Shown: positions 46,850-58,340 of the stretch, piece by piece
How positions within the stretch are numbered: position 1 is the stretch's first letter
How the letters are laid out: every line of letters begins with the position of its first letter
Made by a program: the position numbers and the translations under genes
Source: Closterium sp. NIES-65
Taxonomy: Eukaryota; Streptophyta; Zygnematophyceae; Desmidiales; Closteriaceae
Assembly (NCBI GenBank): GCA_948144175.1
Contig: CANXME010001987.1
Span: forward strand, 429,001 to 493,000
DNA: 64,000 bases
Reading direction: 5' to 3'
Notes under the pieces: generated by a model
Database searches by the model: none
The model's input: the letters and a program-made list of their open reading frames with translations, nothing else
Told to the model about the DNA's origin: nothing

Positions 46850-49800
46850 CTACCGCCTGCCCTTCCCGCTGCTCATGCCGCCCCTCTTCCTTCCCAGCTG
46901 CCCCGACCACATGAGGTGCGCCTGCTGCTCCATAAACGCCATGGCCCGCTGGTTCTTCTCCCGCCGCTCCTCCAGAGCATTCGCAGCCTCATTGGCGCGC
47001 GCAGCAGCGAGGAACTGGTTGTCCTTGCGCAGCTCCCTTGCTGCCCCCCGTGCTTCGCGCTTGATCGCCCGCTGCAGCCGCCGCTGCTCCGCTCGCTCCC
47101 TGTTGGGGTCGTAGTCCTTGCCCCGGGCGAAACTGCAGGGGGGGAGGAGGAGGGGGGAAGGGGGAAGGGGAAGGCGGGGGAAGAGGGAGGGGAGGCGAAG
47201 GGAAGAGAAAGCGAGAGAGGAGTGTTAATGAGGAGGGCAGGCGCCAGCATCCACTGGAGCAGCAGCAGCAGCCTCATTGGCGCGCGCAGCAGCAAGGAAC
47301 TGGTTGTCCTTGCGCAGCTCTCTTGCTGCTCCTCGTGCTTCCCTCTTGATCGCCCGCTGCAGCCGCTCCTGATCCGCTCGCTCCCTGTTGGGGTCGTAGT
47401 CCTTGCCTCGTGCGAAACTGGAGTAGGTGAGGGGAGGAGGAGGGGAGAAAGGGGCGAGAAAGAAACAGGGGAGGAGGGAGGGGAATGTGCCCGCTCCCTG
47501 TTGGGGTCGTAGTCCTTGCCTCGCGCGAAACTGGAGTAGGTAGGGGGAGGGGGAGGTGGAAGAGGGGAAGCGAGGGGAAAGGGAATGGTCAACTTGTGCT
47601 GCTCCGCGCGCTCCCTGTTGGGGTCGTAGTCCTTGCCTCGCGCGAAACTGTAGAAGGAAAAGGAGGTGGAGAGGGGAGGGTGGGGCGGGAAAGAAACAGA
47701 GGAGCAGGGAGGGAAATGGTCAGCCTGCCCGGTCTCTGTTAGATTCTATTCCTTGCCGCACGCGAAACTGGAAGGATGGGAAGGGCGGACGAGGCGGGGG
47801 GGAGGAAGAGAAGAGAGGGGGAATGGGGAGGGGGGGGAGGAGGAGGAAAGTGTGAATGCGAGGGAGGAGGGAAGGGAGGCAGAGGGAGGAGAGGCCAAGA
47901 GTAAGGGGTGTTAATGAGGAGGAGAGCCTTGTAACGCAGCAGTGCTTCACTGGAAGCAGCAGCAGCAGCTGCAGCAGCTTCGTTCGTGTGCACGTGCACT
48001 CGCATGCAAGGAACTTGTTGTCTCTCGATATCATTCTTATTACACGGGGATTGAACGTGCTCGTACTCAGATTCAACTTTTGAGGCGCCTTAAAAGCCGC
48101 AAGGAACATGTTGTCCCTCGATATCATTCTCATTATGTCCATCATTCTCAAAGAACATGCAGACATGTGGAGGATTGAACGTGCTCGTACTCAGATTCAA
48201 ACTTGGGGTTGGACTGCTTCACCGGCACGGCCCCTTTCACCCTCAGCCTACAAGCCTCCAGCTTACCATATCGTTCCACCTCTCATTCAATCCATCTCGT
48301 CTCTGCACCTACTCAAACCACAGTGCATCATTCTCAACACGTACTCAGACTCGAACTTGGGGTTGAACTGCTTCGCAGGTACCGCTCGCTTTACCCTCAG
48401 TCCCCTATTCCCGGTTTACCACTTCGTATAAACGCTCCCTTATCCCCCATATCTTAAAACGTACTCAGACTCGAACTTGGGGTTGAACTGCTTCTCAGGT
48501 ACCGCTCGCTTCACCCTCAGCCGCAGCGGTTGCCTGGAACCTTCCACCTCCGCCACCGCCCCCTCGATATCCTTCACCCACGCTGCCCGCTCCTGCTCGA
48601 TTTCTTCGGGCAGCTGCCCGGACTCCGCAAGGGCAGCGAGAGTGGGCAGGAAGGGCGCGAAAATCTCGGGGAAGGGCTGCATGGGGCGGTAGAGCAGCGC
48701 AAAGGAGCGCAGCGTCTTGAGCACTGCCAGCAGCAGACTCAGCCTGGGTGAGGAAGGGACGGGTGTTGGGGAAAAGGGGGGAGGGGGGAGGGGGGGGGGG
48801 GAGGGAAATGGGAAGGGGGAAACACAGGAGCAAAGGAAATGGGTTGTGGGGCGTGGAGGGAAAGCGCCTTGCAGCCTCTGCTCCATCCCCTACAGTAACT
48901 GCCAACTGCCTTAGACTCCAAGATCTCGGGGAAGGGCTGCATGGGGCGGTAGAGCAGCGCAAAGGAGCGCAGCGTCTTGAGCACTGCCAGCAGCAGACTT
49001 AGCCTGCATATGGGAGGGACAGGAGTCCAGAAAGAAAATGGGAAAGAGGAAACGCAGGAGCGAAGGAAGTGGTTTAGGGGCGTGGAGGGAGGGAAAGCGT
49101 CTGGTAGTGGCCCCTGCCCCATCGCCTCCGGTAACTGCTAAGTGCTTCGGACTCCAAAAGAGGGGGGGGGGGGGGGGCGAGGGTGGGCAGGAAGGGCGCG
49201 AAGATCTCGGGGAAGGGCTGCATGGGTCGGTAGAGCAGCGCAAAGGAGCGCAGCGTCTTGAGCACTGCCAGCAGCAGACTCAGCCTGGGGGTGGTTGGGG
49301 ATGGTGTTGGGGAGAGGGGGGGGGGGGGGGGAATGGGAAGGAGGAAACACAGGAGCAAAGGAAACGGGTTGTGGCGTGGGGAGAAGAAGTGCGTTGCAGC
49401 CTCTGCTCCATTCCCTACAGTAACTGCCTACTGCCCTAGACTGGAAGATCTCGGGGAAGGGCTGCATGGGGCGGTAGAGCAGCGCAAAGGAGCGCAGCGT
49501 CTTGAGCACTGCCAGCAGCAGACTCAGCCTGGAGTTGTGTGTGGGGGAGGTTAGGGGGAGATAGGGGAAGAGGTGGGGGGAGAAGTGGGCGGGTGTAGTG
49601 GGGACAAGCACCAGTAGCAGCACATGGGGCGGTAGAGGAGCGCCAAGGAGCGAGCCACCTGAACCTGAGTCATAACCTGAAACCACCAGAACTACATGAG
49701 ATCACCTGAACCTACCAGAAGCCACCGTGGAAAAAACCTGAAACCACCTGAACCTACCGGAAACCACCTGAACCTACCTGAAACCACCTGAACCTACCTG

Positions 49801-58340: not shown

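Follow-up and report, generated by a model that had tools for sequence, protein, structure and literature searches.

Small tandem duplications are common, and the content of their junctions is usually regarded as random filler. In plants, their formation by fill-in of staggered breaks has reportedly been studied with paired nicks, and duplications are said to have been studied in rice as well. If a single palindrome were to recur at such junctions, this would indicate that break repair includes a sequence-specific step or that a micro-element has gone unrecognised. In mouse cells, overhang fill-in together with end joining yields tandem duplications, which needs CST and Pol alpha-primase, and most of these duplications cover nearly the whole overhang (PMC8355091). 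They resemble the sites described here in that direct copies of variable length lie beside the break and no homology is needed. However, the accessible part of that report describes no recurrent junction palindrome, whereas one is present at the NOP14 sites (PMC8355091). Very short recurrent palindromic inserts are likewise known as mobile palindromes in organelle genomes, namely the yeast GC clusters (GC42) and the repetitive hairpin-forming elements of sponges (PMC4478555, PMC2800124). Yeast GC clusters have flanking direct repeats, as do the NOP14 sites, and GC42 is mitochondrial, GC-rich and looped and, as far as the available parts of these sources go, is flanked by AG or ACT only (PMC4478555, PMC2800124).

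NOP14 occupies about 46.6-58.6 kb, on the minus strand, of the 64-kb stretch of Closterium sp. NIES-65 DNA analysed here, hereafter the window. A 442-aa frame of the gene matches Pfam Nop14 (E 7.6e-27), and among proteins it is closest to the product P0001 of Closterium sp. NIES-64. This protein gives 16 alignments to the window, six of them at 97-100% identity and the remainder lower, and several of the lower-identity alignments overrun exon ends or span introns. P0001 includes a duplicated exon in both its copies (51912-52073 and 51727-51831). A product of NIES-67 (P0002) matches the window in stretches of 65, 140 and 182 residues, at 98, 71 and 54%, respectively. Sites A-D fall between the coding stretches that match NOP14 proteins and not inside them, with the exception of one alignment that crosses A with stop codons. 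Elsewhere in the window, 30524-33169 contains a frame that resembles a retrotransposon (30524-31705, minus strand; integrase core, gag-pre-integrase and SH3-like domains) and a neighbouring frame without a Pfam match.

The initial annotation described four palindromes with one common core in NOP14 introns, and we confirmed both the core and the coordinates. The sites and their surroundings are as follows:

56063-56080, unstranded: site A palindrome TTTTGAGAATTCTCAAAA, 20 bp including the outer C/G
56047-56062, plus strand: left target copy of A, 16 bp, 15/16 identical to the right copy
56081-56096, plus strand: right target copy of A, 16 bp, abutting the palindrome with no spare base on either side
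56196-56300, plus strand: paralogous empty site of A, target once and without palindrome, 37 bases shorter than the filled copy
55846-55950, plus strand: another empty paralogue of A, with a single target and no palindrome
54070-54110, unstranded: site B palindrome, 41 bp, with a single unpaired T
54018-54069, plus strand: left copy of B, 52 bp, 49/52 identity, no spare base
54111-54162, plus strand: right copy of B, 52 bp, 49/52 identity, no spare base
51500-51561, unstranded: site C insert, made up of a perfect palindrome of 44 bp (51500-51543) and, directly after it, a second core (51544-51561)
51423-51495, plus strand: left copy of C, 73 bp, 69/73 identity, four spare bases before the insert
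51564-51636, plus strand: right copy of C, 73 bp, 69/73 identity, two spare bases after the insert
48077-48096, unstranded: site D palindrome CTTTTGAGGCGCCTTAAAAG, with one G-T mismatch
48006-48076, plus strand: left copy of D, 71 bp, aligned blocks of 34/37 and 29/29, no spare bases
48099-48200, plus strand: right copy of D, 102 bp, exceeding the left by 31 bases, two spare bases
50697-50714, unstranded: possible decayed core with three mismatches, uncertain, at one end of a duplicated segment

The core consensus at the four loci is the dyad-symmetric CTTTTGAG-NNNN-CTCAAAAG, written as the search pattern CTTTTGAGNNNNCTCAAAAG. Its centre is AATT in A and B, ACGT in C (twice) and GCGC in D. Since every one of these is self-complementary, the cores are genuine dyads, with no unpaired loop as in a stem-loop, and because the centres vary among loci yet pair within each, the two halves have either changed together or one was made from the other. 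With the initial 18-base pattern and at most one mismatch, the 64-kb window contains five matches, all confined to sites A-D: A and the first core of C are exact, while one base differs in B, in D and in the second core of C. The first core of C has G/C outside instead of C/G. When up to three mismatches are allowed, the window contains eight matches, which is above the chance expectation (mean 0.64). The whole window has only four perfect loop-free palindromes of at least 16 bp, which all belong to A, B and C (D is imperfect), compared with a mean of 0.82 in 300 shuffles keeping local composition. The arms extend to 22 bp in C and about 20 bp in B, and the outer arm sequences are unrelated to each other. 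On the plus strand, five of the six occurrences of TTTTGAG lie within these palindromes. The inserts measure 18-62 bp and are embedded in longer non-coding stretches. Inserts A, B and C have GC contents of 22, 24 and 37%, against 56-62% nearby, whereas D is not AT-rich, as 16% of windows in the NOP14 gene are equally low in GC. Recurrence of the same core marks the insert as a specific repeat, which sets it apart from random filler.

Each of the four palindromes had also been placed between direct copies of local sequence, which is borne out at 4/4 loci: every locus in the window within one mismatch of the core lies between such copies, with 0-4 spare bases. In having direct copies around a junction insert, A-D fit tandem duplications with filler. 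The copy lengths first estimated (about 13, 47, 73 and 40 bp) hold for C at 73 bp and are revised to 16 bp for A, 52 bp for B and 71/102 bp for D. With gaps allowed and 130-bp flanks, the junction scores are 13 (A), 43 (B), 61 (C) and 33.5 (D). The gene is rich in repeats, and a score of at least 13 was obtained for 1.8% of 4000 randomly placed gaps within it and one of at least 30 for 1.1%. Ungapped scores are 13, 40, 57 and 0, and D falls to zero because its right copy is 31 bases longer than its left. In the ungapped random test (n = 3000), 1.6% of positions reach the score of B and 1.0% that of C; 4.9% reach that of A, which is thus weak if taken alone. Site A also scores 0 when the flanks are extended to 200 bp, where a longer tandem copy probably captures the best alignment.

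Other palindromes behave differently. The sites were picked in the initial annotation with the repeats in view, and the set within one mismatch is complete for the window. Within the window, flanking repeats are present at 4/4 core loci and abutting repeats at 0/6 of the other perfect 14-bp palindromes. None of 12 further controls (eight hairpins, two half-sites and two three-mismatch matches) had abutting repeats, one scoring 6 and the others 0. These hairpins come from 13 detected, of which three belong to the family and two in a tandem array (4971-5038 and 5045-5108) were left out. The weak matches at 46455 and 57633, each with three mismatches, are without flanking copies. A hairpin at 43182-43221, with 16-bp arms and an 8-base loop, is without flanking direct repeats. 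In viral contigs, where at least 120 core matches exist, none of the 120 tested had abutting repeats (ungapped, best score 4); these matches are taken as chance occurrences and serve as a control only. A fifth, weaker case had been suggested at 45.7-45.9 kb, where direct copies do surround an imperfect inverted repeat, but it lacks the core and scores 0, and its membership is not confirmed.

Duplication extends well beyond the four sites. Direct self-matches cover 6150 of 12,001 bases in the NOP14 region, against 546-1898 in four other 12-kb stretches. We listed 27 tandem-duplication junctions in the gene, of which four have a clear core, one has a possible decayed form and 22 have neither; the list was drawn by hand, with the pairs at D, 50697 and A adjusted and some entries belonging to one array, and is therefore not exhaustive, blind or independent. 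A palindrome as a general mark of junctions was rejected, as 2 of the 22 core-free junctions have a stem reached by only 2% of 60 shuffles. The element at 50697-50714 adjoins one copy of a duplicated segment and a microsatellite separates the other copy, giving a junction score of 0; it is possibly a decayed member, although its three mismatches are no better than chance. Beside it, and inside the duplication junction, about 12 TGTGA units form a perfect microsatellite (50718-50776). The NOP14 introns (46600-58600) contain many partial copies of adjacent exons, which may confuse gene models. For example, RLSLLLAVLKTLRSFALLYRPMQPFP is present four times (near 48745, 49011, 49286 and 49530), encoding the same 26 residues each time. 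Duplication is a general habit of the NOP14 gene and does not depend on the core, and the palindrome is a recurrent, sequence-specific junction filler. That half of the gene is composed of its own partial copies has a bearing on intron growth.

Such a background raises the possibility of ordinary tandem duplication with captured filler, in which nearby palindromes serve as mutual donors and the common core reflects local copying. The confinement of all members to one 8-kb stretch, the AATT centre common to A and B and the 27 junctions listed in this one gene are consistent with it. We nevertheless consider it quite improbable, given that the centres differ among loci yet remain self-complementary, the outer arms have not been copied, and the core is not found in the random fillers of the remaining 22 junctions.

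Site A indicates what the locus may have looked like before the palindrome. It sits in a duplicated exon end of which there are two more copies, at 55846-55950 and 56196-56300, each with a single target and no palindrome. Subtracting the 56196 copy from filled A leaves 37 bases, of which 18 come from the palindrome, 16 from the second copy and three from a CAT repeat. In the simplest reading of this comparison, the palindrome and the second copy would have come in one event. No full empty copy was found in the window for B, C or D; B has a diverged copy upstream without the palindrome, and C has a paralogue that matches part of its target. The copies at B and C are 5-6% different, so these events are not very recent.

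The empty targets also bear on whether the core came first, being cut as a fragile site with the adjacent sequence then duplicated by error-prone repair. Palindromes are known as break sites (PMC7999016), and the NOP14 gene duplicates readily. However, the palindrome is absent from both paralogous A targets, and all loci in the window that match the core with at most one mismatch have copies beside them. Both observations weaken the hotspot explanation, which we regard as unlikely. The NIES-64 genome is an assembly of PacBio and linked reads, and several strains of the Closterium complex have long-read genomes, NIES-64 and NIES-65 being able to mate (PMC10407611). With these strain genomes, filled and empty sites become directly comparable.

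The inserts share no words longer than 8 bp with the 1.5 kb on either side (the longest are 7-8 bp), which argues that they were neither copied from next door nor made as inverted copies of the flanks. This bears directly on small inverted triplication by template switching, which likewise places inverted sequence between direct copies (PMC13334657); because the word comparison shows that the filler does not repeat the flank in inverted form, this origin was rejected. A sequencing or assembly artefact would hardly be expected to leave copies that differ by 5-6% at B and C, and triplication and artefact together seem very improbable.

When the arm words were compared with viral, bacterial and archaeal sequences, no source of the inserts was found. 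The B arm word has one match and the C arm word none in viral contigs, and a 17-base B word matched 110 bacterial or archaeal stretches. Among the loci examined from the matches listed for that word, two (L134 and L202) have CTCAAA at most 25 bases after it, and neither is palindromic. In a Chloroflexi genome bin, three contigs (L158, L180 and L196) end a repeat with GTGAATTTTACTTTTGAGACAGCCCC, which has 19 bases in common with the B arm, and a fourth contig of the same bin (L230) is among the B-word matches. The repeat end resembles an insertion-sequence end. Its likeness to the B arm is likely chance, as it was found by searching for that word.

The sites could also be what is left of a transposon family whose ends resemble CTCAAAAG..., such as two ends that came to abut when the middle was lost, the target duplications being unusual. 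The half-sites do resemble outward-facing terminal repeats, and the B arm matches the bacterial repeat end, possibly by chance. Against this, the target duplications range from 16 to about 100 bp, compared with 3-9 bp in the cut-and-paste-like introner families covered by the available part of a survey (PMC9860276), and the constant part is central while the outer arms differ. Long, variable duplications and a constant centre weaken the case for a standard transposon, and we judge such remnants improbable. The sites depart from a cut-and-paste transposon or MITE in that the duplications have no fixed length (16, 52, 73 and 71/102 bp) and the termini are not constant, the centre being conserved and the arms of B and C differing.

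The reading that we favour is that at each site a staggered double-strand break in the nuclear gene had its overhangs filled in and received a short self-complementary duplex, and we assign it a probability of about 0.42. The initial annotation had offered two readings, a tiny insertion that makes flanking duplications and a break-and-repair process seeded at the palindrome, and our results favour the former over the latter. Palindromes between copies, the common core, the locus-specific self-complementary centres and the empty paralogous targets at A are visible directly in the DNA, and from the form of the sites we infer a staggered break with fill-in as their cause. A break with long overhangs would first arise from nicks in the two strands, placed 16 to about 100 nt from each other. 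Fill-in of both overhangs would then place direct copies of the target on the two sides. Finally, a palindromic duplex would be joined between the ends, made of two half-sites CTTTTGAG(R)(M) placed head to head, with a self-complementary centre of 4 bp between them. Such a centre would fit head-to-head joining of half-sites through 4-nt ends.

Insertion into a break agrees with the empty A paralogues, the lack in the window of any uncopied core with at most one mismatch, the negative controls, the AT-richness of A-C and the absence of words over 8 bp in common with the surroundings. Counting against it are the unrelated outer arms of B and C, the composition of D, the failure of the arm-word comparisons to reveal a source and the 22 of 27 junctions that are core-free; the weak matches at 46455 and 57633 would count against it as well if they are old members. 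All the evidence is from one strain, where the four clear loci lie in a single gene and full empty sites exist at A only. A further step would be to regard the palindrome as a nuclear micro-element, loop-free and 18-62 bp long, that enters staggered breaks with variable target duplication (16 to about 100 bp) and aids intron growth in Closterium; we put this forward as a doubtful extension.

Among the titles and abstract openings of the literature searched, we found no published description of an insert that combines such a palindrome with a duplication. Introner elements are similar in having inverted and direct repeats in introns (PMC7789003). However, in the accessible parts of these reports introners are whole new introns with direct repeats of 3-5 or 3-9 bp (PMC7789003, PMC9860276), whereas in NOP14 the insert appears to be a small one within an intron. 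Small inverted triplications are similar in having direct copies around inverted sequence, but their middle segment, in the part of the report available, is an inverted copy of the flank (PMC13334657), which the NOP14 filler is not. The sites differ from an organellar palindromic element (GC cluster or RHE) in location, as the inserts lie in introns of nuclear NOP14 and not in an organelle. Compared with the organelle palindromes, the NOP14 inserts are nuclear, loop-free and mostly AT-rich, and they lie between copies of 16-102 bp.
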